Assembly: GCA_036362985.1 (NCBI GenBank)
Contig: JAYGXS010000006.1
Coordinates: forward strand, 14,337,756 to 14,401,755
Direction: 5' to 3'
From: Ligula intestinalis
Lineage: Eukaryota > Platyhelminthes > Cestoda > Diphyllobothriidea > Diphyllobothriidae
Length of the DNA stretch: 64,000 bases
Both the position numbers and the translations under genes were made by a program. Shown in pieces: positions 7,126 to 45,472 of this stretch. The notes under the pieces were generated by a model, which was given only the letters and a program-made list of their open reading frames with translations, ran no database searches and was not told where the DNA came from. Positions within the stretch are counted from its first letter, which is position 1. Each line of letters starts with the position of its first letter.

Positions 7126-7459
7126 ATAAAAAGGAAGGGCTGGGAATGTTATAATGTTGATTCAGAAACTCAGCTCAGACAGACTAATTTAAACAAATTT
7201 TCCGTGACTTTATACAGGAGTTAGGGACCAAAGTACGTAGCAGTTCGACTCAAATCCAAATGTTTCATCACTCATTCTGGGGGTAAATCCACGTCTTGCA
7301 AAGTTTCCGCATTGGTTCTTGGACAAACAAATATGGTAGTTGTCCAAACGTGACCAAGAATTAGCGAGTTTCTAAGGTTCATTATGCTCCTGACCATTCG
7401 ACATGCATCAGTGAAATCCTGCGTTCAGCAAACAGTTTAAATATTGAAAATAGGCAAAA

Positions 7460-7510
7460 CAGCAGAATTTATTGATATCAACAAATTTCGCGACAGCTTA
7501 TCAGCTGCTT
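7460..7510 (-). ncRNA. Hammerhead-ribozyme-like motif (mutated core)
   Basis: On the minus strand, helix I is AAGCAG (7510-7505) with the partner CTGCTG (7465-7460). The core is CTGATAA (504-498 side), where the G of the canonical CUGANGA is A. A short GCTGTCGC helix II precedes GAAA (7489-7486). Helix III is TTTGTTG pairing with CAATAAA around a four-base loop. The lost G should make it inactive. It lies downstream of the minus-strand GIY-YIG fragment, where PLEs are known to carry hammerheads. Confidence 0.55.
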
Positions 7511-7705
7511 CTTGTCGCTGCATAAAAAACAATAACGAGGACACATAGAGCAGTCGTGAATTTCAGAGAATTACTGGCAACAGCAAGGGACGTGGGTCAG
7601 TTTAAAAATTAATTGATAAAGGTCGGGAACGTTAAGTCAACATATGGGAAGTAGTGGATGAGGGAAGTTAACGAAAAACACGTGGGAATTAAATAAAATG
7701 ACCAA

Positions 7706-8400
7706 TCACCAGGGCAATTGGAGGTTGACGACATGGTCAAGCTGCTTGCATAGGTCAGGTTTCTCACACCGTATGTGTGCAGCTTCTAAATAGCGCGGGA
7801 TTCGGTTGGTTCGAACCCGAACAAGTACTCGAAATGCTATTTTGAGGTCGACAGGATGACCGCTGTCTAATAGATGCTTTCTAACAGAGGACCTTGGTAT
7901 TCTGTCTTCTTGCTTCAAAAGCCGTTGGGCAAGTGCTCAGTGGCCCTGGCTGCCAGTTGCCTTTGCGTGCGCCCAAGGTATTTGCATCCGTAATAACATG
8001 TGAATTCGTAAACACAATTTGAGGTGGCAAGCAATGGTAAGGCATCCTTCGCCCATTTTACTGGAATATGTTTAGTGGAACTTAAGAAGACTAGTTTTGC
8101 TGCGTTGTAGGTCCTTTCTATCGTACAGCGTAACCGTCGCTTGATTAAGGTGGAAATGTCGTCACCCTTGAGAGGTAAGGATATCATGACGGGCTGTTTT
8201 GAAATTGACTGTTCCATAAATGTTGGCCTTAGGGGATTGCTATACTTTTGATCAAAGCGTGCCGGGTAGCCACAGTTTAGTAGGGTTGAGTTGAGGCGAG
8301 AAAGCTCTCCTGGTAAGGTATCACTAGAGCAAATGTTCCTTGCTCGTTGAAAGAGGGTATGTAACAGATTACGCTTCCACTGAATTGGCACGAAGCTCAT
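7706..8400 (-). pseudogene. PLE GIY-YIG endonuclease fragment
   Basis: The first part, from 8400 down to 7915, encodes SFVPIQWKRNLLHTLFQRAR, the RT-to-nuclease linker, and then CVYEFTCYYGCKYLGRTQRQ, a GIY-YIG motif with the cysteines typical of PLEs. It continues at 7918-7706 in another frame with SSVRKHLLDSGHPVD and ends ...LDHVVNLQLPW. A frameshift at about 7916 breaks it. The 23459-23794 copy has the same order, with closely similar residues and the same VVNL.LPW ending, so both belong to one PLE family. The nuclease cuts the target during insertion; this copy cannot be functional. Confidence 0.8.
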
Positions 8401-8402
8401 GA

Positions 8403-9026
8403 AGTGTAGGTATGGCTCTTGTCAAGGAAATAAAGCCCATTCGAGAACGGCTCTCCACATATTCTACGAAGGACACTTTTCATTTTATCGAGGACATCAA
8501 GCTGCAAAACGTTACTGACAAATGTATGATTTCACTAGACGTCGAATCACTATTTACAAATGTACCGCTGGACGAGACAATAGACATTATTTGTGCCCAT
8601 GCGCCAGAAACACACCTGTCACCTGCAATACTGCGCCAATTACTGTAACGCTGCACCAAAAATGTTAAATTTCTATTATATGGACAACTTTACAAACAAA
8701 TTGACGGTGTAGCAATGGGCAGTCCACTAGAGCCCACATTTGCGGATGTTTTTATGGGTAATCTAGAAGAAAAAGCGTCATCAAGACTTAATAAGACAAA
8801 CTTATATGGAAGATATATGGATGGCATATTCACAATTGTTGATTCCAATGAAGACGCCAATGACCTCCTCAAATTCTGCGACAGCTTTTCAGCTGCTACT
8901 TGCCGCTGTCTAAGAAAGGTAGCGAGAACACATAGAGCAGTTGTGAATTTCAGTATTTCGAGTACTTGTTCGGGTCCGAACCAACTGAATCCCGCGCTAT
9001 TTGGAAGCTGCACACATACGGTGTGA
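8403..9026 (+). pseudogene. PLE reverse transcriptase fragment
   Basis: Residues LVKEIKPIRERLSTYSTKDT, SLDVESLFTNVPLDETIDI (motif A), GVAMGSPLEPTFADVFMG (motif B) and RYMDGIFTIVDSNED (motif C) appear in order. This is the palm of a PLE reverse transcriptase. Motif C should read YxDD but has MDG, so the second catalytic Asp is lost. A stop at 8646-8648 interrupts the frame between motifs A and B. After about 8950 the frame continues into sequence from the far end of the GIY-YIG region, showing an internal deletion. Confidence 0.85.
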
Positions 9027-9278
9027 GAAACCTGACCTATGCAAGCAGCTTGACCATGTCGTCAACCTCCAGTTGCCCTGGTGATTGGTCATTTTATTTA
9101 ATTCCCACGTGTTTTTCGTTAACTTCCCTCATCTACTGCTTCCCATATGTTTACATAACGTTCCCGTCCTTAATCCATTAATTTTTAAACTGACCCAAGT
9201 TCCTTGCTGTTGCCAGTAATTCTCTGAAATTCATCACGGCTGTATATGTCCTCGTTATCCTTCTTATGCAGCGAAAAG

Positions 9279-9329
9279 TAGCAGCTGATGAGCTGTCCCG
9301 AAATTCGTTGATATCAATAGATTCTGCTG
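9279..9329 (+). ncRNA. Hammerhead-ribozyme-like motif (intact core residues)
   Basis: Helix I is TAGCAG (9279-9284) pairing with CTGCTG (9324-9329). The core is CTGATGA (9285-9291), a short weak helix II follows (GCTGTCCC), then GAAA (9300-9303). Helix III is TTCGTTG pairing imperfectly with CAATAGA around ATAT. Cleavage would be expected after 9323. The conserved core residues are all present; helix II is poor, so activity is uncertain. Confidence 0.6.
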
Positions 9330-9359
9330 TTTTTGCCTATTTTCAATTCTTACCGGGTA

Positions 9360-10130
9360 AAAATGCGTCAAAGTTTGAATCTTATCAAGTATGGGGCTTG
9401 AGATCTTTTTATCAAAAATTGCGAGTTAAAAATACTATATAAAGCACTGAAAAAAAACAGTAATTTGTCTGAGAGCAAGACGCAAGTTATGTCTATCTTT
9501 ATGATAAACCTCAGGGAAATTGTTGCTATTTTTATGTAAAAGCAGCAGCCATTTTTCCGTTGAGAGTATAAAAAGACAATAAATCTCTTGGCCCTGCGAT
9601 CCGTTAGTCACAGAGCATACATTGGTCTATATCATCACAATCCATTATACCAGAAACTCAATAACCAAAAAATAGCCTCAGGGATGATTATTTTTAGTTT
9701 ATTTTGCTTTGAGCCAACCATATAAATCTCAGATGTGGTTAGTTTATGAGCAAACATTCTACCTCTGGGCCACGAGTGCATCTCATATTCACTGGTATTG
9801 AGAAGATGAAAAGTCAACTGAAAATAGAACCTATCGATTTGTCCTAAGTGTATAAGGAAATGTCACCTTGTCGTGTACTAAGTCAAACACGTTCAAGCTA
9901 TCATGGACAAAAATGGAGTGAGACAACCATAAAGAGGTGAAAACCAATACGTTATCCTGATCTCTAGGCAGTTAAGAATAGAAGCTACATGTCTCATTAG
10001 TGGAAATCTGAGTATAATAGTAAAAGCAATAGTTATAAACTAGAAAGTACAGAGGTAAGCATTCATATATAACACACAGAAAGGAAGAATGTAGGCGTTT
10101 ATAATCTTTTTTACCCTCTCTGGATAGCGA
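9360..10130. other. No gene recognised
   Basis: AT-rich sequence between a PLE pair and a Tc1-like element. Nothing beyond short chance reading frames was seen. Confidence 0.5.
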
Positions 10131-14219: not shown

Positions 14220-14290
14220 GAAGAAGACGTTTCGAGCACCGGATCAGCTGGTTTATTGTCAGGACAATAAAACAACGTCTTTCCATCTGT
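14220..14290. repeat. PLE terminal fragment, TTCGAGCACC family, small inverted pair
   Basis: The stretch AGACGTTTCGAGCACCGGAT with TGGTTTATTGTC matches the repeat at 26907-26977, 27300-27370 and 31960-32111. It folds back at once into GACAATAAAACAACGTC, so a very short inverted pair is left. No coding content. Confidence 0.55.
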
Positions 14291-14339
14291 GAAACATCTT
14301 TTCCCAGGAAGAAATTTGAAGCAAGCAAATACGGCAGAA

Positions 14340-14412
14340 TTTATTCGATCAAATAAATTTCGTGACGGGCCGCAGCTGACGAGCCGTCACGAAATTTATT
14401 TGATCGAATAAA
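14340..14412. repeat. Perfect inverted repeat, 29-bp arms and 15-nt loop
   Basis: Arm 14340-14368 (TTTATTCGATCAAATAAATT continuing TCGTGACGG) is the exact reverse complement of 14384-14412. The loop contains CAGCTGACGAG. On the plus strand CTGACGA, then a short CCGTCA stretch, then CGAAATTTATTTGATCGAAT resemble a hammerhead core with a hairpin helix III. On the minus strand the GAAA, helix III and following CTGC match the PLE motif at 7460-7510. It looks like two PLE ends fused head to head. The right flank (GCAAATACCTGGAACGCGAA) belongs to the same family as 26881-26905 and 31934-31955. Confidence 0.8.
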
Positions 14413-14479
14413 GTCTTTCTATTTATCTGCGCAAATACCTGGAACGCGAACCTTTTCATTCATTCGGGTACACTAGCTG

Positions 14480-15954: not shown

Positions 15955-16310
15955 AGCTGAATTTGGCAACAGCAAGCGCCCACTTGGGGAACCAGATGGC
16001 TGATCAATCATCACGTCCAATTCCACCACGCGTGATGCAAATTCAGCAGACCACGGTCCGCATGCCCGTCATCAAGCAATCCACGCACATTAGAGCAATT
16101 ATCGTCAATTGTCGTTATTTGTCATATGTGTGCAGTAATAATAGTGCCCTATAAATACTGCAAAATCCTGTGCATGTATCATACGGTTCTGATATTATTT
16201 TCAGCTCATATCTCTGATGAAGATTCCGCGACGGATGTCAAAACGTCAGGCGAATAAAAAAGTCGTCTCCGCGATCGAATCTTCTTCTTCTTCTCAATTT
16301 CTTCCTGGGA
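15955..16310 (+). repeat. PLE terminal (pLTR-like) region with hammerhead-like core
   Basis: This region shares an ordered series of words with the minus strand of 45000-45330, for example CAGATGGCTGATCAATCATC against the CAGATGGCCGAGCAATCATC seen there. Both have TATAAATA followed by the hammerhead-like words. Here CTGATGA (16214-16220) is followed by a TCCG/CGGA stem and then AAAACGTC, so the G of GAAA is mutated. Downstream, CAGGCGAATAAA leads into a serine-rich frame. The identity as a PLE terminus rests on similar words beside the PLE tail at 2.7 kb. Confidence 0.6.
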
Positions 16311-16379
16311 TTCGCCTGTTCTCTTGCACTGGTATTGTTTCACTAACCTCCCCACCCACCGATGCTCTCGGCGATTTTG

Positions 16380-17646: not shown

Positions 17647-17807
17647 GAACACGTGGCCCACAGTCCAAACGTTAACACCCCCCCTCCCCTCACCAGCACA
17701 ACCTATCGCCGCGGGAGTCACGTCACCATAACCCTCCTCCCCGTTCGCTGTTACCTCTGCCCCCAAAACCCCTAGTGCGACATTTCCCAGCCCTCACTTT
17801 TGATTTA

Positions 17808-17885
17808 GTCTGACGACGAACATGTGATACTTGTTCGAAAATTCACGAGTACAACTCAATTTTCCGGATATCTTTCTTTTCAGGA
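17808..17885 (+). repeat. PLE terminal fragment with hammerhead-like core
   Basis: CTGACGA (17810-17816) is followed by CGAACA pairing with TGTTCG, then GAAA (17837-17840) and ATTC. This is the same family as the minus-strand copy at 7040-7125. At the two helix-III bases this copy has A and U where the other has G and U; both can pair. Confidence 0.5.
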
Positions 17886-18224
17886 TGCTAACCGGTAGGA
17901 TATTGTGGTTCTCCTCACAGAATGGAGAGAAAAGTTGCACTGCTACATTCTTAGTGTAGTTGCTATGACACTCCCATTCAACTGGGAGTCGAGCCGCTCC
18001 TACCTTGTTTGTGTAAAAGCTCGACCCGTCATGTGCATATCACGTGCGAGCAGCAAGCACAAATAAACTCAACTCTCTGCATAGTATCATTGTCAATGTC
18101 AGAGGTAATCAATAAAGTAAAACATTAACAGCCTAGGAATGTAAAACGTAACTTTGTGCTTAATACGTTAATAGTACAAATTTCTATCAATATGTTCATC
18201 ATGGCAAAGCATAAAGAAGTCGGA

Positions 18225-18459
18225 AGTTCAGAAGAAGACGTGACCACTAGAACAAGAGTTTTAATTTCCTGACGCTTCGGATTCCGTCGGGAATCCTTTC
18301 TTATAGGTAATGGAAGCATAGCCTGAGTCATGCACATATAGAGGTGAAACAGACTCAGACTATGTTACCATTACCTATGAGTGAGGAGTCCCGACCGAAT
18401 CCGAAACGTCAGGAAATTAAAACTCTTGTTCTAGTGGTCGCGTCGTCTTCTTTTGAACT
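18225..18459. repeat. Inverted pair of PLE terminal fragments, about 105-bp arms
   Basis: The left arm 18225-18329 and right arm 18352-18459 are diverged reverse complements around a 22-nt spacer. Each arm, read outward, has CATTACCTAT, a hairpin, GAA-CGTCAGGAAATTAAAAC and TCTTGTTCTAGTGGTC. The left arm on the minus strand has a 7-bp hairpin, GGATTCC with GGAATCC around CGAC (18296-18279), then GAAGCGTC. The right arm has GGAGTCC with GAATCC, then GAAACGTC (18403-18410). The CUGANGA part of the hammerhead is worn away in both arms. Confidence 0.65.
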
Positions 18460-18609
18460 GCTTCCTGGAACTCACATAGTTAAACCTATGGACAGTCGGA
18501 AGTATGATGCATGCGAAAGAACAGTTCACTATCCGAGAACGTTTCGTTTAGTTAAACATTTTCTATTACTTGGTCATTCGCATGCAGCATCCAAAATTCT
18601 TTAATGCTT

Positions 18610-20469: not shown

Positions 20470-21387
20470 TATATCCATGAGAAAACTCAAGATGCGTTGA
20501 TTTACGTAAGACTTTTGGACGCCCGGATCTCTTCATTACATCTACTTGCAACCCACCATGGCCTGAAATTACCGATGAGCTGCTCCTATGTCAAATGCCA
20601 GAGGATCGCCATGACTTTTCCGCGCGGGTATTACAGCTTAAGTTGAAAACCATGATGAAACACATCACAAAATTCAAAATTTTCGGTGACGTTAGGTGTC
20701 ATATGTTCATTGTAGAGTGGCAAAAGAGAGGACTGCCCCACGCTCACATTTTGGTCTGGCTAAAGGAAAAACTGTGCTCTTCTGATGTCAACAAATTCAT
20801 ATGCGCAGAGTTGCCTGACCGGTCCGTTGACCCTGTTCTGCTTGAAACGATCAAAACTCAAATGGTGCATGACACATGTGGTCAGATAAATTCTAGCAGT
20901 CTTTGCATGAAGGATGGTAAATGTACCGGGATATATCCCAGGTGCAACTCAGACTGATGGCGATGGTTACCCTCTCTACAGAAGGCGACAACCTGAGATT
21001 GGCGGACTCGAAGCAGTTATCAATGAAAAGCGAACCGGTGGGGTGGTAATTGATAACCCTTGGATTTTGCCGAATTCTACTCTACTGTCAAAAGTATTCA
21101 ACGCCCACATTACTGTTGAATTTTGCAACTCAGCGAAGTCCATCAAGTACGTCTGCAAGTACATTAACAAAGGTTCTGCCCCCCTAAACGAAGTTCCATT
21201 ACTGGCAACGCCACATGTTCTGCATCACAGCTATGTACAAAGAGGGAGTTCAAAGGGATTTACCTATATTTTTCTAATAAAACTGAACTGAAAATAATTA
21301 TTTTGAGAGGTTCTCATTTACAGTTTACCTACATTAGGGACAACAAAATGTAAGGAAGCCCAAGGCGAAGCCGGGATTTCGAGCTAG
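20470..21387 (+). mobile_element. Helitron fragment, copy 1, with Rep domain and 3' end
   Basis: Two frames read GRPDLFITSTCNPPWPEITD (near 20513-20575), then VEWQKRGLPHAHILVWLKEK (20714-20773), which holds the H-x-H metal motif of rolling-circle Rep. Then come GYPLYRRRQPE and NAHITVEFCNSAKSIKYVCK with YINKGS, which holds the two tyrosines that cut DNA. Frameshifts lie near 20512 and 20940. The helicase part is absent. The 3' end has a hairpin made by GAAGCCC and GGGATTTC, and then CTAG at 21384-21387, a proper Helitron terminus (CTRR), followed by T. Confidence 0.85.
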
Positions 21388-22162: not shown

Positions 22163-22169
22163 TGTGTAT

Positions 22170-23120: not shown

Positions 23121-23197
23121 TAAAATCCTGAAGGTTAAAAACGTGTTTCAGCAATTTAAAGCAACGTTTCCCTGGTGCAAATTTAAATATGGCAATA

Positions 23198-23253
23198 GCA
23201 GCAAAATGATTTATTGGATCCATATCATTTCGAGAGAGCTCGTTAGTTGCCGC
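23198..23253 (-). ncRNA. Hammerhead-ribozyme-like motif in PLE end (one core change)
   Basis: On the minus strand helix I is GCGGCAA (23253-23247) pairing over seven bases with TTGCTGC (23204-23198). The core is CTAACGA (23246-23240), where the canonical G of CUGA is A. A small GCTCTCTC helix II is next, then GAAA (23231-23228). Helix III is TGAT with ATCA, and two U residues close at the cleavage site. All stems differ in sequence from the motif at 9279-9329, yet they still pair. The changed core base should abolish cutting. Confidence 0.6.
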
Positions 23254-23458
23254 CTCTCATTACTTAACGTGAATCACAAAAGAGAAGATACACAATGAAT
23301 TCGTACAGAAAAATCGATATCAACACAAGGTCATAAGGAGTGGCCAAGTGGCTAATCAATAACATGAGAAGTTCAAAAGCTATGGTCAGCAAAAATAACA
23401 GGGAAAAACACCTGAAGTAACAACTTAGGAGGAAAAATGTATAAACAGGGAGCCAATG

Positions 23459-23930
23459 TTACCAAGGCAAAGTTAGGTTCACTACATGCTCCAACTGTTT
23501 ACATAGGTCGGGTTTGACCCGCCGTATGTAGGCTGCCTTCAGGTAGCGTAAATTGCGAGTCGTTCGTGCTCGAACAAGTACTCGGAAGGACGTTTTGGGG
23601 TCAACAGAATGGCCCGAGTCTAACAGATGTTCAGTAATTGAGGATCGGGGAACTCTGTTTTCTTGTTTCATTAGCCAGCTAGGTAAATGTTCCTTAGCTC
23701 TGGTGGCCAATTGCCTCTGCGTTCGCCTTATGTACTTGCATCCGCAAGTACATGTAAATTCATAAATGCAGTTTGAAGTGGCGTGCATCGGCATGGCATC
23801 TTTCGCATGAGGAACTGGTAAAGGCTTTGTTGGATTGCAAATTATCAGATCAGCAGCATAGTACGTCCTTTCATTGGCTTGAGAAGGCGTCTTTTGATGG
23901 TGTTTAGTATGTTGTCACCCTGTTCATACA
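23459..23930 (-). pseudogene. PLE GIY-YIG endonuclease fragment
   Basis: The open part 23794-23459 encodes CIYEFTCTCGCKYIRRTQRQ (GIY-YIG motif; the usual G after YI is R), AKEHLPSWLMKQENRVPRSS, SFRVLVRARTTR and ...LEHVVNLTLPW before a stop. Upstream, to 23930, worn frames give GDNILNTIKRRL, the linker seen also in the 8 kb copy. It is the same PLE family as 7706-8400. The RT is absent. It lies between two inverted terminal regions. Confidence 0.85.
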
Positions 23931-24114
23931 TTTTTCCTCCTAAGTTGTTACTTCAGGTGTTTTTCCCTGTTATTTTTGCTGACCATAGCTTTTGAACTTC
24001 TCATGTTATTGATTAGTCACTTGGCCACTCCTTATGACCTTGTGTTTATATCGATTTTTCTGTACGAATTCATTGTGTATCTTCTCTTTTGTGATTCACG
24101 TTAAGTAATGAGAG

Positions 24115-24170
24115 GCGGAAACTGACGAGCTCTCTCAAAATGATATGGATCCAATAAATCATTTTGCTGC
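24115..24170 (+). ncRNA. Hammerhead-ribozyme-like motif in PLE end (one core change)
   Basis: This is the inverted partner of 23198-23253. The core CTGACGA (24122-24128) is canonical here, but GAAA has become AAAA (24137-24140). Helix III is TGAT (24141-24144) with ATCA (24158-24161). Helix I is GCGGAAA with TTGCTGC (24164-24170), one mismatch. Each arm thus keeps the core base that the other lost. Confidence 0.55.
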
Positions 24171-24209
24171 TATTGCCATATTTAAAAATCTTGAAGGTTA
24201 AAAACGTAA

Positions 24210-26870
24210 CCCTGCCTATTCTGAAAGGTAATCCTTTGGATTTAGAAAATGTTTATTAAAATTTTCTAGAATATGAAATGTTTATAAATTTGAGCAGAAA
24301 TCTAAGCTACCTTCTATTACGGTGGTTTCCACTGCCAACAACTATGCTAGACGAAGTTTGCTCACGCGTGCGCCTACTCCTATGAGAAGACAGTAATTTA
24401 ACTTCGTACGGTTAACCAAATGGAATTGTCGCACTTGAACGTTCTTCAGGGGGGAAAACGGCACAAGTGGATGGGTTATTTTTAGAAAGTTAGACGTTTC
24501 ACCCATTTTAAAACTTCAGATTTGCAAATCCGTGTGCTTTGGTGACCTGAAAAGTTGTAAATGTGCCTGCCGGTAATCCATTGTTTAAACAGCCTGACAT
24601 TTTTTCTGCCCTTTGCGGTTAGTCTACGACTGGGCCTCGGAGCAGGCGTAACGTTACGTTTGAAGCATGTTGTAAGCTACTTTTGCATGAGCCCGTTTTC
24701 GCTAGTGCGTCATTTAGAACTGGAAAGAACAGACTGTCATCCATCTTCAAAGTGTCTTTGTATTTATAAGGGAACTCGGTTGTGCGTTTAAAATCTTAGA
24801 ATGGAGCCCGTCGGCAAACATATATAATGAAAAGCTTCATATATAACGATCGAAATAATCCCTTTGATTTTCACCAGAAAATAAGTGTCGTATATTAACT
24901 GGAAAAATAAAAACTGAAACACCTCGAATGTTCCACTTTGTACCTGCGCTTGCATACCTCTCTTACCGATGAGCTCAAAGAAAGTCCTGTTTGTCTTCAC
25001 CAATCCTATTTTAAATAATGCATAGACGGAAGAAAACATTGGCAATGTCTGTGAAATCGTGCGTGGATATGTACTCGATATATAGTTGGTTTGCTTACAA
25101 CCGCACATTAAACCTATCGCCAAGGGCCTCTTAGTTTGCTACTTTAATTACTCAGTGTTTTGCACTGCCAAATTTTCGGCACAGTTTAAAATTAATTTTT
25201 CAGAATTTGCTGCCTTTCTAAAGATACAGTATTTATAAACAACATAATATTCTTGTTACTATTTATTTTATATTTTTAGCTCGCTTAACCTTGTTCAGAA
25301 TTAATTTAGAGCTTTGTACTATTCGTTGGCAGCGGTTTGCAACGGACGAGTACTGCTTCGCACGATTTGGAATTTTGCAGCAGATGTGTCACATGAAAAA
25401 GGTTTCTGCTGGCATTTAAATGCATGGTAAAAAATTTAAATAACTCCTCATCCACCTAATAAAATTACTATATAAACTATATAAGGCCATATAATTATGA
25501 GTCCTGAAAATGTTCTCAAAGGTTACCACCAGCTTTTCTTATCCGAATTCTTTAAAAACAGTAGTTTAAATTCATGAGAGTAATAAAGAATATTCTGTGT
25601 AAAGAAATTTGTTTTGATTTTTCGGGTATGGATAGTCAAAGGCGAATATCTGATGGAAATGAGACAATAATTTAATGTTTTGTATTTATTCGGTAAGTGT
25701 TGACTCAGTGGCGTCTACGCCCCCCTAACGTGCTCCGGAAAAGAATCCTTAGACCACGAACTTGAGAGGATGATTGAACTTTGATCAGCAAAATAGCTAC
25801 TTATATTTAATTCGAATCATAAGCAACAATATATAGAAACAAGCGACTTCCAAATCGAGGGTAGACCATCTAGTGATTTGGCTGAATACCTCCCATTGTG
25901 GAGAAAATTTTCACTGAGATTGTTACAAAGAGGAAATATTTTATCGTAAGGAACAATAGGCGTGCTTCCAGTAATACTTGCAACCACCATTATTCGTAGC
26001 AAAACGGCTAAGACGGCTTATTATCATGAAAAAGGCCTCGAGACGAAAAATTTACGTTTAAATAATGCCAGAATCGAGATTTGTTTCAAAAAATGTTTCT
26101 CCAAAAGGTAATACTAAAATATTAAGCATTACCTATTTTATAGGAAGATTGTCATTGTAAGCGTCATCAACCGTGGAGAACAAAAAGGTTATAAAATGAG
26201 TCGCGCAGGTCAAATCGGGTGTTACTCTGAGAGTTTTAAAGTGAGGCAACTTCGGTGGCTTACTGAAAGGTATGCAAATGTAAGCGCATGCGCTCCCACT
26301 GGGTTTATAGGCCGTAAACATGGTTGCCCGGTTAGTTCTATCTTCTCTCTTTCTGACCCAGAGGAGTGAATACCGGCTGGTTGCGCCTTGCGAATTTGTG
26401 GGCGGCGCGATGGCGGCGGCGGCTGTCACGCTCTCGTCTGTGTAGTCGCAAGGGCCACCCAACCAGTCGCTTCGTGCTTATCTTACGGAACTAGCCTTTC
26501 TGAGCATGATTGCATGCTTAGAAGCGGCCTTGGCCACACCAGTCACATGTACTCTTTCCCATCTCCCGTCTTGTCTTGCGGGAGTGATGAGAAAAAAGGA
26601 GGTAGATCCTGCGAGTCTTTTTTCAGGATAATGCACCTACAGTCACCGCGTCTGCCTTTGGCTTACGGAAGCTCGTGGTGGACATCGCCGAAATTGACGG
26701 TTGACATTAACAAATGACCAAAAGTTTTGAACCACTAATGGACGACTTTAAAGTTACTGAAATCGTAAGCAAAATATGAAATTTAATATAAGGTAGTTCA
26801 GAAATACAAATATTTTATAAAAGCGGCAAATTTCAAAAAAGGTCAAAAATTGCTGTAGTTGGCTAAACTT
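24210..26870. other. Intron sequence, no feature recognised
   Basis: No exon or known element could be supported. About 26370-26560 is richer in G and C (GGCGGCGCGATGGCGGCGGC) with overlapping open frames on both strands, but the encoded peptides are not recognised. Confidence 0.4.
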
Positions 26871-26976
26871 GCTGAATGAAAAAGTTCGCGTTCCAGGTAT
26901 TTGCGTGGATAAAGAAGGAGGCCTGTCGAGCACCATATCCATTCATTTATCCTCCTGAGCTTTCGAACTCTTACAG

Positions 26977-27034
26977 GTGGGGTCCTTTTCGTTTGCAATT
27001 CTGACTTCAGAATTGCAAACGAAAAGGACCCCAC
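26977..27034. repeat. Perfect inverted repeat, 28-bp arms and 2-nt spacer
   Basis: Arm 26977-27004 (GTGGGGTCCTTTTCGTTTGC continuing AATTCTGA) is the exact reverse complement of 27007-27034, with CT between. The sequence forms a near-complete hairpin. It starts at the inner end of the PLE terminal arm (ACAGG). A perfect palindrome in otherwise decayed surroundings suggests a recent origin, or an assembly or copying artefact. Confidence 0.9.
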
Positions 27035-27284
27035 TAAGAACCGGCCAGAAGAGGAGGCAGGGTCACCGGGACCCTCTTCCCTGGGAACAAGGCATTACAC
27101 TGATTACTGTTTATGACCCCGAACGACCGCTGTCTTCACTGACAGTTAATTAGCGTTTACCACTATAATTGTCCACTCCCGACCTCCATCCTTTTGGTTG
27201 ATTTTTCTTTCCCCTTGACGACCGCTAACAATTGATTGGCCTTTGGCCACCATAATTACCTTCCTTTTGGTTGCTGCTTCTTAT

Positions 27285-27325
27285 CTCTGAAGATAAACTC
27301 CTGTAACAGTTCGAAAGCTCAGGAC
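27285..27325 (+). ncRNA. Hammerhead-like motif with two-pair helix III
   Basis: CTGAAGA (27287-27293) fits the core CUGANGA. It is followed by AAACTC-CTGTAA-CAGTTC as a helix II hairpin with imperfect pairing, then GAAA (27313-27316) and GCTC (27317-27320). Helix III would be only two pairs, the second of them G-C. Related motifs here have C-G, A-U and G-U at that pair. Cleavage would be expected after 27320. Core residues are intact; activity is unknown. Confidence 0.45.
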
Positions 27326-27374
27326 AATAAATCAATTGATCCGGTACTCGACACGTCTGCTTCCTTATCCATGG

Positions 27375-27755
27375 CTAAACTTCATTTTTTACCGTACAAA
27401 AAGCTTGCCAATGCAAAATCCCGAGCAAAAAAACAGCACAACTGGAATGACATTTTTTAAAAGAATCCCTAGGGAAAGGTTGCAATTCAATATCGTTCAT
27501 TAACAAATGCAGTGTAAAGCAGTCTATAATTTGAATATCTATTCCAACACGGTCTAACAAGAGTTGACTGTCCTTTCTTAGGCTTCCCCGTTGTTTAAGA
27601 CACAGCTGACAATAGCAAACAGGTTTCTGCTTGATTATGTCGAAAGGAACGTGACAGAAATAATATTGCTTATGCTCATCTGTTTCCAGGCTTATCAGTG
27701 ATTAATAAATTTGAATAGAATTGGTAGGAGGCTTGGTAGATTTGAATAATTGATT
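27375..27755. other. Intron sequence with no recognised feature
   Basis: Only short frames; nothing recognised. Confidence 0.4.
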
Positions 27756-31500: not shown

Positions 31501-31930
31501 TATATTACTTGATAAATCGCAATATGCCCTATTATGGAGAACGACCATTACTTTATTGCTGAAAATCTTTGGGGTATGCAGCTTGGGCTGTGTTCACGTA
31601 AGAGGGTGCTTTTTTGTAAAGATCCTTGGATTTATGAGTTAGAACCACTACTGTAAGGCTTTTGCTGCATAAATTACATGCTGAAACTCAACGAGCATTG
31701 ATTGGCTACCATCACCATGCTTCTATATGTAAGCTGTTATATTAAACATTCAAAAAATGCTAGTGTACATATGTTTTCCGATGAACATTCGTTTTTCTCG
31801 CAAGGATTTAAAGATTATATTTGCGGGACAATATTTTGGGAAAAATGAGTCCATTTTACGACTGAGTTTTCGAGAAAGGGATCACTCCATCTAAAAAGTA
31901 CATTCATTAGGAACTCCCGAATGAATTAAA
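28561..31930. other. Intron sequence, no feature recognised
   Basis: This 3.4 kb is AT-rich and has no exon or element I can support. About 29150-29290 is somewhat richer in G and C. Confidence 0.45.
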
Positions 31931-31933
31931 ACG

Positions 31934-32111
31934 TTCGCGTTCCAGGTATCTGCATGGAAAAGGAAGACCTGTCGAGCACCAAATCAACTGCTTTATTGTC
32001 CTGAGCTTTTCATCTCTTACAGGAGTCTATCTTCAAACATCTAGACTTCTGTAAGAGTTCGAAAGCTCAAGACAACGAACCACTTGATCCGGCGCTCGAC
32101 AAGTCTTCCTT
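31934..32111. repeat. Inverted pair of PLE terminal fragments, 68-bp arms
   Basis: Left arm 31960-32027 and right arm 32044-32111 are diverged reverse complements around 16 nt. The right arm reads GACTTCTGTAAGAGTTCGAA, AGCTCAAGACAACGAACCAC and GGCGCTCGACAAGTCTTCC. GAAAGCTC at 32061-32068 matches the hammerhead 3' word at 27313-27320. The CUGANGA core is not intact (CTAGACT). The left outer flank (GTTCGCGTTCCAGGTATCTG) is shared with 26885-26903 and, inverted, with 14434-14454. Confidence 0.65.
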
Positions 32112-32119
32112 ATTAATTA

Positions 32120-35100
32120 AAAAATTATCTGAACTATTTTTTGGCCACGGCGCCTCTTATCTTATCTAAAAATTGCTAATATAATATGCAAATGTTTTCA
32201 CCAAACTTTATTAATAGGTTATTTTTCAACAAACCACACAAGAAATCATGTCTGTGTGCTCTTCGAGAGAGCAATAAAACTTTGCATCAGTGATACAGTG
32301 AACTCGAAATGTGCCTGTCCAACAGTAGTCCATGCGGACCATGATCCTTTAATGTTCTGCCGTCAACGCTGGCGGGACAGTTAGTCCCAAAAAGGCCGAT
32401 ATATCAGGCGGCTGCAGAGTTGCATCAGGGCTTATGAAAAATCCCCAATAGAAAGTATTAAGGGGGCTTGATCTATTTTGCCATCTTAAAGTGTGTTTAT
32501 AATTTTGTGTAAACTGGTTAGTATATGGAGGCCGGCTTTTGAATTTGAAGTTCCATTTTTTAATGTTCACTCGTCAGATGCAAAATATGGTTAATGCACA
32601 GCATGGTCTCATTAACGATTTCTTTAAAATTACGATCATGAGGTCATTTGCACAGTACGCTTGCACAATTTTGAAAGAATAAAAACAATAACATAATTTT
32701 TTGAACATTAACCATTAAAGAGTGATGCTGAAAAAAGCAACTGACGACCACTATGTCGTATTTATGACCCCCTGTCATACTTTTCATATTTCAATCAACA
32801 ACTAATTACACTTTTGATTTTCTATACAATGAGATTTCAGACATATTTCTGAAACACATTTTCGATTCGACAAAATTACTGAAGCAAGGTTGTCAGATTG
32901 ATTATCATGCAGCCTGATCCCAAGATATTTCAGTAACTTCACCACATTGGCTTTCGAAGGAACTCATTTTGCAACCGCAAATCAATGAGTAGCCTAATTT
33001 TACTGAATATGCCTTTTGCAGGCAGACACAAATGAAGTCGTTTAACCGCCAGCATCCTAGTTTTGCTGAAACCCCTTAGGATTAGTTTGCACGATGATCA
33101 GTATTACAACCCTACTTAAGTAACCTGGTAGAATAAAAAAAATACATTTTTCGGCATCTGTTGCACATGAAAACATCGCTGCGTTTGAAAAATCTCACTG
33201 ATGCGTCAACTCAAGAACATGCTGTCAATGTCAAGCTTCCTTGTATCCATCTGGCATCAGCCGTTTTAAAAGAAAACTAATTCTGTTAGGAAGAGATTAA
33301 ACTTAGAGGAACGTTAACTGTCGCCGAGAGAAATAAATGAACGGTGAAAGCGATTCGCAAATAATGACACACACGTCCTTCTGCAGCTTTCAAAATGAAA
33401 GGAAATGTGCATTAAGCCGCTGGGATGAGATGACCAAGTGTCTCCCTGAGAGCTGCTATGAAATTGTAGGCCTTTATTTTCGACCCCAAAGATGTGACAG
33501 GTGTTATTGTGGCTATGCGCAAGTCACGTGTGTTGAATAATTTGAACGGCATTATATTTGTTTTAGTGCATATCCTCCCTCTGTGAAAATGTACAGTTCT
33601 GTCTATTGGCTCCCTTTCAAACAACATGTTTTATCGTCTTGGGAACATCTCATTATTTTATGCGGAAATTTTAATCGAGCGAATGTATTTCTCTTTATAC
33701 CTTAACGCTTTCAGGACCTTGGTCTTTCAATACTTATTTTAACGTTTCTTTTATTCACATTGCCATCAACCAGCCTAATTGTTAGCCCGTTAAAGTATAT
33801 ATCCGATATCTGTTAGGACTAATTTGTGTTAAGGGGACTTGCTAAAATCGACTCAGATTTTGAGCGCATATTTTTAACCAAAGCTGGCATTCGCAAGGGC
33901 CATTCTTAACTTATAAGCTGTCGTCAACTAGATATAATTAACTTCCGGTCTCATCCGGGGTCTTTTTTTGTTAATGACGATCAGGCCTGTAGCCGAGCAC
34001 CTACCGACATGTTCATTTCGCTATGCTTTGGGACTGATTCTCGGACCGCTTCAGTCTCCCTTTGCTTTGTCGGTAGTGTTATTCTGCCTATATTACTGTC
34101 GACCGTGCGGCTCCGGGCGGGATTCGGGAATGAATTCCGAGGCATAATCAGGCGAGTACGACATGAAACACAGTCGGTGAATGCCCGTTGACCAAAGAGA
34201 ATTTTTGTTCGTTATATTACCCCAAAAACTTTCGTTTGTTCTAGAGTTCTATAATCGCCATCATCGACAATTTTCTTACACTATCGTACATTAAATCACA
34301 ACATTGCGTGATAACATTGGCAAAAGTAGCTTTCGTAGACCCACTAATACACCCCTTGTCCCTGCATTTTATCCTGCAAAAACGGTGGTTATCGAAATTT
34401 GTGGGGTGGGGAAATAGGATAGGCAGAGAATGAAATTTTTAGAAGTGAGCGTAAAGTGAAAACATGTAGTCGATGTTGCTTCCCACGGCCGCTGGGAGCA
34501 GGTTGTTCCGCATGTAAATTGAAGGTGTGCGAGGCGCTTCGCACGGCGGACTATGCTGATCTTACTCTAGAACGGTAAGCTGGACCACAGGTTAGTTGGA
34601 GTAGACGATCTCCTAACCACCATTTCAATTTTTCGGGAAATTCAAGAAACCTGCTGTTTAATAATCGGGGTTTTCAGCAACAAGTTAAATGATAATACAG
34701 ATAATGAATGTCTGCAGATATAAATCAACAACACTTCTAAATACAGTAAAAATTAAAATTCATTTAGCATTTATTCAAGTATATTCCACTGCGTGTCCTA
34801 ATTTCCCGCCCATAAAACCCGATAACCACCGTTCACATAGGAAAACATGCAGGTTGTAGGGAATTTTGTGTGGGGCTACATAAACTAATGTTGCCATAAC
34901 ATTTATTGTAACCTTTCGAAACTGGTATGGTTAAATTTTACAGAGCTTCTTCATCATACTTAATATGCTTAAGGCGCCAAAGGAACTCTGCAGACCACGC
35001 TTGCCTGAAGGTCTTAAGTCATTATAGAAAGGGAGCTCTCAAGGCTGAATTATATTTTTCTCTTTTCTCGTCTTTAACCCTTTATTTCTTTTAATCTTGG

Positions 35101-39279: not shown

Positions 39280-40655
39280 AATCTTACGGAGACTCGCACC
39301 TTTGAGTGATACTCGAGATGGTTTGCATACTAATAGCAACGAGCTTGGGTTGGCTTATTTTATGATCCAACTTCCTACTTCATAGCTAATGAAGAGTAAA
39401 ATGCATTAGTGTGGGAAAGCAAAACCCGCTTTTATTCTTTAATTTTCGAATAAGGCTCATAATATGCTAATATTTTCATCAGAAATACAGATGTTCATAA
39501 TTTCAGTCAAGTTAAGTTCATGGAAAAGATGACTCATTGACTCTTAACTATTATTTATTAAGGAATCAATCAATAACATTTCATCATTTTTAACTGGGGA
39601 TTGACCTGAATTTATTTCTCTTTTGGCCTAGCAACTTTTGTTTTAGACGATTGCGTGATTAAATTGGATTTTATATGCTGTATCCTGTTTTTTAACCGCC
39701 TGATGTTAGCTTAAAATCAGAATCAAACACAAAACACACAAACCTTTTTCGGTCAAATTTAGGCTTTTCATCATAAGTAATGAACATTTTTATTAAACTT
39801 CATATGGATTTTTTCTAAGTGAGCAATACAAGAAACACTTTTGTGGTCGGGTTTGGCTGGCTGAGGATAACTTATGGGCCGGAATTGAACATTCCTGTTT
39901 CCACTCTCTCTTTCGGTAATGTTCGCCTATTTAAAACGTTTTATATTTACTATGACGGCCATCTTCACACGTTTTTCGGAAGGCTTTAAGCAGCATATAA
40001 AACTTTCTCAAAACACTTAAGAAAAGTTTTGACCGGTCCCCGCAGTATTTTATTTTAGATAGCACTACTCAGAGGCCTCACCGCAGAAACTAAAAACTAA
40101 CTTTTTATTGCATAGAGTGGAAAGCCCTATGGTTTTTTTCTAAAGATGCCATAAGGACAAAAAAGGCCATCAAAGAACAAAAATATAAAGCAACTATTTA
40201 AGTAGTTAAGAGAATGAATTTCAAACCCAAACTCTTGCAGTAAGAACACCTTTAATTTGGAACTCAATCCTTTTGGAAATCGTAACAATTGGACACAGAG
40301 TCGACTGTGCGGTTTTATTCTACTATGTCGGTATAAAGGCCGTCTTATGATTGTTAGGTAAAAATATTCCTCCAGAAAGTATTTCGAGTAGATTTGTATA
40401 AACTCAATGCTCCAATCTTCCACGTACTAGGGATAGTCTATTTTTGATTTCTATCAACAGTACCGATAGAAGTTGTTGGACATACGTAAACGCTTGGCTA
40501 GGAAGATGCGTTCATAATAAAAATAATTTGCCCATCCCCTTGAGTTTCTGTCTCCCAGTACAACATAAGACTTTTCTTTCTCCAATGTCTAAATGCAACA
40601 CGAAAATCAATTTAGAGGATCGATTGGTGTGAAAGAAGATAGCCTTACCGGCGAA
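39280..40655. other. Intron sequence, no feature recognised
   Basis: AT-rich; only chance frames. Confidence 0.45.
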
Positions 40656-40810
40656 GACAAGGGAGACTGGAATGGTCATTTCTGGCTCATATGCGGTCGT
40701 CAGCCAGTCATACCTAACACTAAATGGTGCATCACCAGAGACTCAAACTCGCAACTTTTTTGAGCAGAAGCCTAACGCTCGAACCCCTGAGCCACGAGCT
40801 CGTTTTCTTG
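40656..40810 (-). repeat. tRNA-derived SINE-like repeat, family 1
   Basis: The minus strand reads CGAGCTCGTGGCTCAGGGGT, an A-box-like head (about 40803-40784), then a worn B box (GCGAGTTTGAGTCTC). It continues into the tail GGTATGACTGGCTGACGAC and GCCAGAAATGACCATTCCAG near 40705-40665. It matches the copies at 1.9-2.5 kb. Confidence 0.7.
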
Positions 40811-40814
40811 GTAG

Positions 40815-42778
40815 TTTACATCGGAATATATTGAAGGAATTTGGTACTAGCAAGGGGATTGGTTAATAACACAAAAACTCAGTGCGACAAGTAAACTCAT
40901 GCATTTGTATCAAGAAAAAAAATAGGCATGCCTAAGCAGGCTCGTTGTGAGGCAGCCAACGATAAAACTTATATCGAGGAAGAGTTGATAATCGAACAGT
41001 TAAACACACACGCTCCGGTCACTGCATTTTAAACCTCAATCTAGAGCACACACAAGCAGCTGTATTGCCTCCAGCAGCTAAATGTAACGAGCACCGACGA
41101 AGACCAGAGAGATCAGGATGTTCAGTTGTGACTTTGTTGACACTAGTGAAATTTTGAGTTGAAGGAAATAGCTCAGAAGAAATAGATGCGTCAGGCAAAT
41201 AAAGTACTTATTCTAGCGATCGCATTTACTTCGTTTTATGCCTTTATCGTCGTAAGCGAGCCATCCGCTGATTTTTGGTTTGGCTAATTGTTTGGTTTTC
41301 ATAAGTAAACCAAGGACTCCATGTAATGGCTGCTTGTGAAAAAGTATTCTGTTCAACCGGTGTATGTTCCCAGACTGCGTCCTGTTTGCGCAGAGATCAT
41401 ACGTTAATAGATACTGCAAGAAATAACATATAGGTTATTTTACTACGACTGGCACTATTACAGCGAGGGCTCGAAGTGATTAAAAAGTCTTCAACACCAA
41501 GCTACCAAGAGCACATATGCATTAACAAAAAATGATTTAATATTAAGTCAACGCTCCCTTGTATCCAAATGTTCACTAAGGGTACTGCAAGCGTTTCTTA
41601 GCTCGGAAACGGACACAATATCAGAAAATGTTGGTACCAGAAAGCAAGCGATATACAATGCATGGGCAACTCAAACAAATTCGGACAGTAGAGTAGAAGT
41701 CCATTCACAGTTTACTTATCGGCATATCAACATAAAAAATATTCCTAACTTCTCAATCAGTCATCACATATTAATCTTCAATAAAATTATTCAGTACTGA
41801 ATTACGTCATCATATCATGAAAGCAGGCCTATGCGACGCTCATATAACTAATTGCCATATATGTACAGGCGAACTGAGGTTCAGGGAGAGTTCCTATTCG
41901 ATGACTTGTTTAAGAAGAGTTTAAAACTTTACAATTATCTATGGGGTTCTTACTGAGCTACTTTGAGTACTGAACGGAAATCTCGGGCTCTTTAAAAGCA
42001 ACTCTGGCACCGGAAGGATAAATCAAAATGGAATGTACGAATAAAAGCCTTAACCAGAAAGACTTCTTAAAAGTAATTCGCAAAATAGTTGCATCAAAAA
42101 TATATACAACCGCAAACTTCGTTTTATAGTCAACATAGAGAATTAGACGGAACACTTCAATTGTTTGGTAGCCTAAGCAATGGTGCGATAAAATTTATTC
42201 CTGTCAACTAGTTTTGTGTCCGAAATGCAGCAACACCATCAAACGGGTTTTCAGAACGCTGTAAAACGGAGGTATTTGCATGAAAAAAAATAAAATTTAT
42301 TTGTGACAACGCCTAAGTAAGAAAAGGATTTGGTTATGAGGAGGGTTAGTAGTTTGAAAAAAAGGCCACTTGTACTACCAAAGGTTTATTATTTCGTGTC
42401 TTGCCACAATCGAAGTCAAATTTAACCTGAAGAATCTACGCTTACTTTCTATTGAAGACTAACGCATGCAGAAATTACCCTAAATCATAGTTTCTCAGCC
42501 TAAAGTCGGCGAAATCAACGCTTTTTCTTTGAAGGGACAACGATTCGAATGATATACGACCGTGAAACGCCCTGACTTAAGGTTAAAAAAGTAGAAATTC
42601 AAAGTCACATTAACCTATCTCAAACGTCTGCACTTCGCATGTATTCACCAAACTGAGAACATTCCTACTTTCAGGTTCAAGCGTTATAAGGATGCCTGGA
42701 GAGAAACAATTCAATTATATAGTTCTATTCACTTTGCTTCGTCGTCGTGCGTATAAAGAGGGAAAAAATAAGGCTTAC
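40815..42778. other. Ankyrin intron sequence, no feature recognised
   Basis: This is the part of the long intron next to the donor of the repeat 4-6 exon. Nothing could be recognised. Confidence 0.45.
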
Positions 42779-43063
42779 AGCTGATTGGTGGTCCACATTC
42801 ACATCTCCATTCAACAGCAGGCTGGCAGCCTTGACATCGTCTTTTTTGGCGGCAATGTGAAGGGCGGGCAGACAGACCTTGCCTCTAGCATCGCTCTCCA
42901 GTAAGACAGCCACAACGCGCTCGTGACCCTGTTGGATGGCCACGGCGAGAGGTGTGAAGCCGTCGTCAGTAGTAATGCCTGGATTAGCTCCATTGGCCAA
43001 CAGCAGAGTCAGAACCTCTAAATTATTCTCTTGTGCTGCCATGTACAGCGGAGTGAACCCATT
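42779..43063 (-). CDS. ANK: Ankyrin, exon encoding ankyrin repeats 4 to 6
   Basis: This 285-nt phase-0 exon encodes 95 residues with three repeats: [20 protein letters not shown], then [20 protein letters not shown], then [20 protein letters not shown], ending NVDHQSA. The middle has the [16 protein letters not shown] block that marks canonical ankyrins (ANK1/2/3) and sets them apart from other ankyrin-repeat proteins. The minus-strand acceptor is CTCTGCAG before AATGGG and the donor is GTAAGCC. The coding strand is clearly richer in G and C than the introns. Such ankyrins link membrane channels and adhesion proteins to spectrin under the plasma membrane. Confidence 0.97.
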
Positions 43064-44282
43064 CTGCAGAGCGATAAAACGGAAAGTATGAGAGGATATA
43101 AGGACAGTCTTTGAGTATGAGTAGGGCTTATCCGCAGTAGGTGACGAAACTCGCGAAACATTGACTTAACTCATAAGCTTTTATCTCAGCCAGAAACTAT
43201 TACGCAGGGGACTAAGTCGTGGCATGACGCTATGGCACTTCCTGTTACGACTACTTTAGAGTGAGGATCTTCCTTGATATTGGCAAAAAATGGAATTCGC
43301 TAGAAAATGACAGCTTGTGTAGTGTGGATCTTTTTCATAGACTTTTGATTCGATCAATCTTTTGAGAGAATGCTCAGAAAAATTTGGGTGGCATCTTTAC
43401 ATTAGAAAATTAAGTCTTCTTAAAAAGTTGTACTCGCATAGGGATATCTACCATATTTTAAGCATTTGCGTCTGTGAGGCGTCAAAATTAGTAGTTACGT
43501 ATGAAGGGAGCTGCATATAGTCGATAGTACATTTGGCACTTATCAAGTTAATCATTAAACAAATTAAATGATTATCAGAGGAAGTCTTCCGAAGAGCAAA
43601 TATCTCACAAAATTTCGCTCAAATGTGAACAAGCAAGTTTGTAACACTAAAGCCGGATGCAACAGCAAGCTAGGTTTAAATTAATAGTTGCTGCTGTGCG
43701 GTTTCTAGCGCGGTCCGATAGCAGAGCGGTAGAGGTGAGTTCCGTTAGCGGTCGGGTAAAAGCTCATCAACGAGGTATACTAAGTTCGACTTTATCACAA
43801 ACGTAGTCTTCTGTGCAAGAAAACTAACGAACACAAAGTGGTGAGGGAAATGGCAGGGTGGGCACTCGACTAACGACTTGTTTTAGAAATCCCCTTTAAA
43901 AGTGTAAAGATGGTATAGTTCGGAACTCAGAGTTCTGTAACAGTTGTTAATCTATTGTGCATAGTCCTACAAGAACTGATATCTGATGGCCGGTTTAAAA
44001 AAAGCAGCATAGGCCATACGAACCTGCCTGCTTTTTAGTCAAAACTCCCTCAGCCAAAATGTCCTGGCCAAGTCCGAGGCCTCATTAGTGCTTTTCTATT
44101 CATGCCCATTGCTATCCCCTTCAGCACTTCATCGTTTCCGGGAAACGGAAGTATCGACATGCGCTTATGCCTGCATGAATGTTTAGGACTTCGTTGGAGA
44201 GGAGTTGGCAAGTTAGAGTTTACAGTGTCTCTTTATTAGAGGCATATTTTCATTTATCGAGAGAAAGAGAGAGATCGCGATT

Positions 44283-44325
<43 letters not shown>

Positions 44326-44483
44326 CCCTCATTAAAGCTAACGCAAAACTGACAGTTGGATCTCTCGTCCTTAATGCGTCTTTTAAATATACGTACACAT
44401 ACATAAATATTGAATGATGTTAACCAAGATGGTTAAAGCTGTAGAAGTTTGAATACAGGGATAAAAAGTAAAGAAGACAAGAC
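43064..44483 (-). other. Ankyrin intron of 1.42 kb
   Basis: It lies between the repeat 2-3 and the repeat 4-6 exons. It holds a TA microsatellite near its upstream end. About 43705-43760 (CCGATAGCAGAGCGGTAGAG) has an A-box-like word but no partner B box. Confidence 0.85.
44287..44324. repeat. TA microsatellite, about 19 units
   Basis: An uninterrupted run of TA dinucleotides inside an ankyrin intron. Length is likely to vary between individuals and may be misassembled. Confidence 0.95.
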
Positions 44484-44681
44484 CTGCGACTGGACATTCA
44501 CGTCGGCACCGTGTTCCAGTAGCAACTTCACTACTTCAAATTGGCTTGCCAAGCTCGCGATATGAAGCGCAGTATTGCCTTTTTTTGTAGGGCGGTTGAC
44601 GTCCACGCCGCGAAGCAGGAGTTCACGAACTATCTCCGTGTGGCCTTCCTTGGAGGCCAGGTGCAGGGCGGTAAGACCGTT
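44484..44681 (-). CDS. ANK: Ankyrin, exon encoding ankyrin repeats 2 and 3
   Basis: Exactly 198 nt, phase 0, encoding 66 residues: [20 protein letters not shown], then [20 protein letters not shown] and [19 protein letters not shown]. The [14 protein letters not shown] block is typical of the third repeat of canonical ankyrins. The minus-strand acceptor is AACCTTCAG. The donor is GTCTTG, a GT site with weak match to the consensus. The 198-nt, two-repeat exon is also the usual layout in animal ankyrin genes. Confidence 0.97.
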
Positions 44682-44984
44682 CTGAAGGTTTTTTCCCAGT
44701 TTGGTTAGATAAACAAAAAGAGAGAAGGAATATGAGAAAGAAAAACAATTTAGCGGATTAGACTACATTTTGGATCAGCTTCCCTTAAAAGGTTGTTTGT
44801 CGCACTTTTTGTCTAAAAGACGTGGCTCAAATAAAAATGCTAACATGCGATTTGAGAACTTTTAAAGTTAGTAAACGGATTACCGACTGTAAGCGTCTAC
44901 TAAGAGTGTTTTTCAAATTTAACTGGTTAATAGCACAAAGCCAATCCAAGCAAACCTACGAGTCTCTGGAAGTAAGTGAGCAGA

Positions 44985-45472
44985 AGAAGATTCGATCGCT
45001 AAGACAACACTTTTATTCGTCTGAGGTTTCGATATCCGCCGCGGATTCTTCATCAGAGATATGACCAGAAGCGAGTAAAAAATTCAGAGTAATTTGCAAT
45101 ATTTATAGGACAGAGTCATTACCACACACGTATGACAAATAACGACAATTAACGATAATTGCCCTCTTGAGTGTTGATTGCTTGATTACCGGCATGTGGG
45201 CCCTGACTTGCTGAACTTTGATTCCACGTGGTGGAATTGGACGTGATGATTGCTCGGCCATCTGGTTCACCGATGTTAGCGTAAGACGACGCGGCGGCCT
45301 GTGTCGCGTCATGTGTGGGCAGTAATGACTCTCCGCCCTATAAATACCGCAAATTCCTGTGAACCCATTTCTGTTACTGCTTTCTGATCATTGCTCTAAT
45401 GTAGAAACCTCGACGGGTGTCCAGAAGTCAGGCGAATAAAGGTGTTGTCGCAGCAATCGAATCTTCCTCCTA
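44985..45472. repeat. Inverted pair of PLE terminal regions
   Basis: 44985-45115 on the minus strand and 45340-45472 on the plus strand are diverged inverted copies: TATAAATA, then the hammerhead-like block, CAGGCGAATAAA-like words and CAATCGAATCTTCCTCC. The stretch between them (45115-45330, minus) matches the plus strand at about 15960-16150. The right arm has lost most of the hammerhead core. Confidence 0.6.
45020..45060 (-). ncRNA. Hammerhead-like motif with strong helix II
   Basis: On the minus strand CTGATGA (45056-45050) is followed by AGAATCCG, a CGG loop and CGGATATC. ATCCG and CGGAT pair perfectly over five bases. GAAAC (45030-45026) then CTC (45025-45023) end the motif; related copies read GAAACGTC. 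The core residues are intact. The helix-III pair C-G is lost here (C faces C), so cutting may be weak. Confidence 0.55.

Follow-up and report, generated by a model that had tools for sequence, protein, structure and literature searches.

Head-to-head pairs of Penelope-like element ends in a 64-kb region of the Ligula intestinalis genome and their probable origin by two-sided priming

Results

Inverted pairs in the window

The window analysed here is the whole 64,000-nucleotide stretch C6:14337756-14401755 of the 644-Mb Ligula intestinalis assembly, in which ends of Penelope-like elements (PLEs) repeatedly lie head to head. An original prediction had listed seven such sites with spacers of 15 nt to about 1.1 kb; inverted head-to-head arms were found at all seven, within a few bases of the predicted positions and with measured spacers of 15 to 1113 nt. 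We estimate a probability of about 0.7 that each pair is a single 5′-truncated PLE insertion made by bilateral target-primed reverse transcription. Pairs P and N and the lone ends H, S1 and S2 are additional to the seven sites (A to G). The features are listed below, with arms given as left/right (ORF, open reading frame; RT, reverse transcriptase; pLTR, pseudo-long terminal repeat).

Pair A, 7443..9371: arms 7443-7838/8952-9347, 93% identity; structure more complicated than one simple pair
Pair A, left copy, 7443 to about 8421, minus strand: endonuclease-side ORF 7915-8421
Pair A, right copy: RT piece about 8430-8869 (plus strand), then an 84-nt inverted pLTR fragment 8870-8953 between the RT piece and the arm, then the arm 8952-9347 and a tail 9348-9371
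Pair B, 14327..14424: arms 14327-14368/14384-14424; short palindrome centred on a hammerhead-like core
Pair C, 18218..18503: arms 18225-18329/18352-18459, 89.5% identity; tail 18460-18493
Pair D, 23122..24207: arms 23182-23456/23912-24186, 97% identity; tail 23145-23181; endonuclease-side ORF 23459-23914 (minus strand) between the arms
Pair E, 26860..27382: arms 26906-26977/27300-27371, 83% identity; tail 26871-26905; perfect 28-bp hairpin with a tiny loop, 26977-27034, at the inner joint
Pair F, 31921..32122: arms 31960-32029/32042-32111, 81% identity; tail at left
Pair G, 44941..45471: arms 44983-45136/45308-45469, identity 83% over aligned letters and 74% when gaps are counted; tail at left, 44941-44982; the right side may hold a tail-like stretch too
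Pair P, 1613..1842: arms 1613-1697/1756-1842; hammerhead-like core 1770-1789
Pair N, 2645..4982: ends 2645-2735 (minus strand) and 4890-4982 (plus strand, E 6e-3); outward-pointing PLE-like coding pieces 2857-3237 (minus) and 3633-3998 (plus), read by eye, no Pfam match
Lone end H, 16121..16332, plus strand: pair-G family, tail present
Lone end S1, 7044..7146, minus strand: hammerhead-like core 7089-7119
Lone end S2, 17784..17882, plus strand: 86% identical to S1, core 17810-17840

Comparison of the window with itself by BLAST gave 13 inverted and 6 direct local matches, while 20 dinucleotide-preserving shuffles of the window, searched with the same settings, gave none of either kind. The 13 inverted matches include items that are not PLEs, namely copies resembling short interspersed elements (SINEs) near 2 kb and the hairpin in pair E. 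When 19 hand-listed ends were arranged in window order, all eight listed pairs stood head to head, which is no fair count because the list was drawn up from pairs already seen. On checking, no support was obtained for another short palindrome suspected near 14224-14281. No coding sequence was seen inside pairs B, C, F, G and P.

Coding pieces and hammerhead-like cores

The arms are 3′ ends of PLEs, as indicated by the RT and endonuclease-side pieces between some of them, by hammerhead-like cores and by the target-site duplications (TSDs) at pairs C, D and E. The ORF between the arms of D encodes 151 amino acids and has two relatives, P0001 (83% identity) and P0002 (78%), with nearly the same C terminus; the minus-strand ORF at site A is related to it. 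The RT piece of A matched RVT_1 at 8649-9026 with an E value of 4.6e-4, which is under the Pfam curated cut-off, and the putative RT motifs LDVxSLF, GVAMGSP and YMDG can be read in its translation. Three homologues of this piece were retrieved, one of which, from Oratosquilla oratoria, carries PF00078. Four sequences have in common the pattern CKY(I/L)xRTQRQLAxRAxEHLP, presumably of GIY-YIG type. Pfam gave no GIY-YIG match in the endonuclease-side ORFs, a PDB sequence search returned nothing useful, and the structure model (pLDDT 36) was too poor to use, so that GIY-YIG was confirmed by neither Pfam nor the model.

The hammerhead-like core CTGANGA...CGAAA occurs 11 times in the window, compared with 0.8 expected (100 shuffles, maximum 3), and by our own assignment eight of these cores lie inside PLE ends. 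With at most one mismatch allowed, the core is present in 15 of 19 ends; 13 of the 15 start 62-86 nt from the outer end of the arm, a distance stated without a null comparison. The terminal region may therefore be described, at the level of a core pattern, as carrying a putative hammerhead ribozyme motif. Rfam reported a single weak Hammerhead_HH9 match in the window (19.7 bits versus a cut-off of 52), and a plasmid similarity search produced no match.

Sub-threshold Rfam microRNA matches at 14340-14412 and 31967-32104 coincide with palindromes B and F. These near-misses (mir-2767 and MIR7504) were read as chance matches to long hairpins, and PLE palindromes of this sort could be misannotated as microRNA precursors.

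Target duplications and tails

Eight window pairs (A-G and P) were scanned for direct repeats abutting the tailless arm. The null consisted of 1500 random position pairs, and p values of this anchored scan are uncorrected for both sides of the eight pairs. TSDs were found around three of the eight.

Pair C: AGTCGGAAGT at 18218-18227 and 18494-18503, 10/10, p 0.0027, overlapping the left arm by 3
Pair D: 23122-23144 and 24185-24207, 22/23, above every null score, overlapping the right arm by 2
Pair E: TGGCTAAACTT at 26860-26870 and 27372-27382, 11/11, p 0.0027

These TSDs are short and variable in length, and between them and the other arm lies a tail of 34 (C), 37 (D) or 35 nt (E), the size of a PLE “tail”. 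C, D and E thus consist of inverted pLTRs of which one bears a tail some 30-40 nt long (39 nt in the profile described below), an arrangement characteristic of PLEs, in which the order may also be direct and the tail is optional. The repeat at pair F is uncertain (10/11, p 0.029), since it overlaps sequence that B has in common with the tail of F, and that at pair A is weak (7434-7442/9372-9380, 8/9, p 0.23). An earlier, unanchored scan had given p values of 0.014 (C), 0.001 (D), 0.0055 (E), 0.04 (F), 0.38 (A), 0.12 (B) and 0.38 (G). For 8 of 19 ends the motif CCNGGRA, which was spotted in tails before being counted, occurs in the 40 nt just outside, compared with 0.7% of random flanks; the tail of pair A lacks it. 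Since TSDs bracket C, D and E and are in excess family-wide (see below), the formation of at least part of the pairs in one event is supported.

Genome-wide sample of the pair-G family

The genome was searched with pair G as the query, and all genome-wide sampling concerns this one family. Of 5303 first-look candidates 40 were scored, and the sample consisted of 39 of these places (one on C71, almost identical to a place on C72, was left out) together with 20 spread-out random 6-kb stretches (120 kb). Exclusion of the place that is the window itself (L001) left 38 targeted loci. The 40 scored places were picked by similarity to the query and may favour pairs because it held both arms. Ends were located with a profile (206 positions) of the non-coding end, for which 25 copies with a tail were used; conservation in it drops past the tail.

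In the 58 loci and the window, 111 ends had an E value below 0.01. As many as 104 fell into two classes, 59 ending at profile positions 163-179 (“no tail”) and 45 at 190-206 (“tail”), with seven elsewhere; the class limits (157-179 and at least 187, respectively) had been fixed by us beforehand. Neighbouring ends in the targeted loci were head to head in 24 cases, tail to tail in 7 and direct in 12, a head-to-head excess (24/43 versus 25% expected, p 1.6e-5), and 20 of 38 targeted anchors had a head-to-head partner within 2.5 kb. The random 120 kb yielded four head-to-head, two tail-to-tail and two direct neighbours, too few to stand alone; the same profile found three, one and none in the window. 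Ten ends of other families were present in the fetched loci, and their two head-to-head, one tail-to-tail and one direct arrangements, all at L040, are too few to count. One random stretch (L048, 3562-5704) holds six pair-G family ends whose order is mixed and includes two head-to-head pairs.

Both ends could be typed in 26 of 31 head-to-head pairs, the five with an untypable end being left out of the count. Exactly one tail was present in 22 of the 26 (p 2.7e-4 versus 50%): 18/21 in targeted loci, 2/3 in random stretches and 2/2 in the window. Nearly tail-only partners also exist (L022, 4215-4268; L017, 2508-2567). The TSD score had p <= 0.02 in 8 of 31 pairs, compared with 0.6 expected (Mann-Whitney p 9e-5), and the null 95% value of 6 was reached by 11 of 31, although also by 11.7% of null scores. 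The three window pairs in this set had low scores; pair C was missed because the profile stops short of its tail end.

Origin of the pairs

We infer that both target strands prime and that two RNA ends are used. The PLE protein would cut the target on both strands, and each cut end would prime reverse transcription of the PLE RNA from near the RNA 3′ end; the two copies would then grow toward each other and be joined head to head, with the TSD outside. Reverse transcription would have two start sites, separated by about 35-40 nt; usually each would serve one arm, which would place the tail on one arm only. Bilateral priming explains the outward 3′ ends, the TSDs, the unequal arms and the differing arm ends together. 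The head-to-head order, the TSDs of some pairs, the two preferred 3′ ends, the mostly single tail and the unshared inner joints are all observed. Bilateral priming also fits the cutting and extension of both strands in vitro by the Anolis PLE protein (PMC11167929).

Several observations weigh against this origin. The palindromes B, C, F and P are nearly symmetric, and the centre of E is a perfect hairpin; two copies truncated independently would seldom produce such forms, whereas self-priming would. Pair B is flanked by tail-like sequence on both left and right; two end families are mixed there, the right stretch (14422-14462) belonging to a different one. The anchored scan found no TSD for pairs B, G and P, none was found for N, and the TSD score was under the null 95% cut in 20 of 31 pairs. 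The one-tail rule is broken in 4 of 26 typed pairs (three with no tail, one with two); moreover, the “no tail” typing of the right ends of G and of the locus L018 is not firm, because with an earlier, shorter profile they reached positions 190 and 189 of 200. The original prediction had set inverted order against single and direct copies: in the one family sampled, direct neighbours (12) are indeed fewer than head-to-head ones (24), but 18 of 38 targeted anchors are partnerless within flanks of 1.5-2 kb. Finally, the start site in vitro did not differ between top and bottom strands (PMC11167929), which leaves the one-tail rule without a demonstrated cause.

A tentative extension, which we hold to be less likely than not, is that head-to-head pairing is the initial state of all insertions of these PLEs and lone copies are pairs with one extremely short arm. 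A dimeric protein would cut both strands, each half starting at a different RNA site, and a single tail would result. The tail-only partners at L022 and L017 and the prevalence of one tail among typed pairs fit such a course.

Self-priming, in which one growing cDNA (or antisense RNA) would fold back on itself and use the first arm as template for the second, is an unlikely origin for the pairs as a whole, although it has been proposed for palindromic junctions of rotifer PLEs (PMC3846280, Discussion). It would account for the near-symmetry of palindromes B, C, F and P and for the perfect 28-bp hairpin of E. In 16 of 21 pairs of the pair-G family the two arms also resemble each other more than they resemble the average copy (p 0.013; arm-to-arm identity of 82.1% versus 78.4% to other copies). 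Yet only in 7 of 21 is the partner the top-ranking copy for one or both arms, and these values could equally come from a star-like family history. On the other hand, an arm made by self-copying should end as its template does, and the tail on one arm only in most typed pairs counts against this, as do the unequal arms of A, D, G and many genomic pairs. In pair E, 12 of 72 sites differ between the outer arms and 0 of 28 in the central hairpin (Fisher p 0.018); mismatches are likewise concentrated in the outer half in A (21 versus 7, p 0.006) and G (19 versus 7, p 0.011), with no such crowding in the other seven of nine tests and p values uncorrected. Coding and non-coding parts of pair A differed with p 0.095 only. 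Since the outer arms of E vary while its hairpin does not, a mixture of bilateral priming and self-priming is possible.

It is highly improbable that the inverted pair is a small non-autonomous element spreading as a unit. The lack of visible coding sequence in several pairs (B, C, F, G, P) would suit such an element, as would the reported capture of unrelated sequence between solo pLTRs inside TSDs (PMC3846280). Among the 31 pairs of the one family sampled genome-wide, however, inner geometry was common to 0 of 465 comparisons, a match meaning that both arm truncation points and the spacer agreed within 6 positions (arms extending beyond the profile being resolved by the spacer only); within the window, the centres of E and F are unrelated even though both belong to one family. 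Each pair therefore looks like a fresh, separately truncated insertion. The shared junctions sought by the original prediction thus exist on the outside but not on the inside, and its suggestion of self-spreading is unsupported.

That independent insertions merely happen to lie head to head is scarcely credible. PLE ends are dense in the window, tail-to-tail (7) and direct (12) neighbours do occur in the targeted loci, and the random stretches gave two and two of these against four head-to-head neighbours. Yet TSDs enclose whole pairs, the head-to-head excess is strong (p 1.6e-5) and the one-tail rule would be left over; the earlier rejection of chance neighbourhood holds. The pairs are neither coincidence nor derived from a single inverted master copy. 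Foldback or terminal-inverted-repeat DNA transposons, which would share inverted termini and short TSDs, can practically be dismissed, since the outer ends are unequal with a tail on one side, TSD lengths in the window are not fixed (10, 11 and 23 bp), RT and endonuclease-side coding lies inside A and D, and hammerhead-like cores are present.

Neighbouring features

Pair G adjoins an ankyrin-repeat exon, which suggests that introns of an ankyrin-type gene may harbour some of the pairs. Other features of the window are as follows.

42725-43165 and 44433-44762, minus strand: ankyrin-repeat exons (Pfam Ank, E 5e-20 and 3.7e-22)
1936-2194, 2206-2459 and 40647-40759: SINE-like repeats matching each other at about 73%
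near 2140-2185: hammerhead-like stretch between ACTGG and CCAGT arms in a SINE-like copy (by-eye reading), which may be a SINE equipped with a ribozyme
20481-22169: fragment of a Helitron-like protein (PF14214, E 1.2e-27) that contains a direct duplication (82%) at 20716-21394/21544-22169
53232-53996, minus strand: 254-amino-acid open frame, no Pfam match at E 0.001

Comparison with known systems

PLEs have been set apart as a third class of retroelement in eukaryotes (PMC11167929). Head-to-head pairing is an already known feature of PLEs and ordinary for such elements, since inverted pLTRs, a one-sided tail and TSDs are in print (PMC3846280, PMC8969392); the original proposal that inverted pairs are made during PLE copying was thus right but not new. 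In Adineta vaga, Pen1-Pen6 have inverted pLTRs, one with a 31-bp tail, and TSDs; head to head is the most frequent order there, and the structure is said to be highly conserved among animals with such PLEs (PMC3846280). Inverted pLTRs and short 3′ extensions are also listed as peculiarities of PLEs (PMC8969392). The window alone therefore adds further examples rather than a new kind of element, and shows the regularity of the pairing habit. In the excerpts of the PLE literature examined, neither a count of the one-tail rule nor both-strand priming as its cause was found, which is no proof of absence; the A. vaga account presents the tail just as something that one inverted pLTR may have (PMC3846280). 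With its thousands of candidate ends, whose pairs mostly carry a single tail, this genome offers a countable test of two-sided priming versus self-priming.

The Ligula pairs resemble the Penelope elements of A. vaga in their head-to-head pLTRs, one-sided tail, 5′ truncation and palindromes at inverted junctions (PMC3846280). They differ in that several show no coding sequence and one TSD measures 23 bp, compared with 8-10 bp in A. vaga; the word “hammerhead” is absent from that paper, whereas the Ligula ends carry hammerhead-like cores.

Metazoan retrozymes are likewise non-coding repeats with hammerhead ribozymes and TSDs of more than 4 bp (PMC7229834). They are tandem repeats, however, while the Ligula pairs are in inverted order and some, A and D, include pieces of PLE coding sequence.

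A functional parallel to the proposed origin is PAc, a Poseidon element of Anolis, which has a hammerhead motif near its end and whose protein cuts and extends both target strands in vitro, as we propose for Ligula, the tail being the stretch between its two start sites (PMC11167929). Unlike the Ligula pairs, PAc is described as tandem repeats in the lizard, and the main-text section of that paper draws no connection from both-strand extension to inverted pairs, the connection that bilateral priming would make here.

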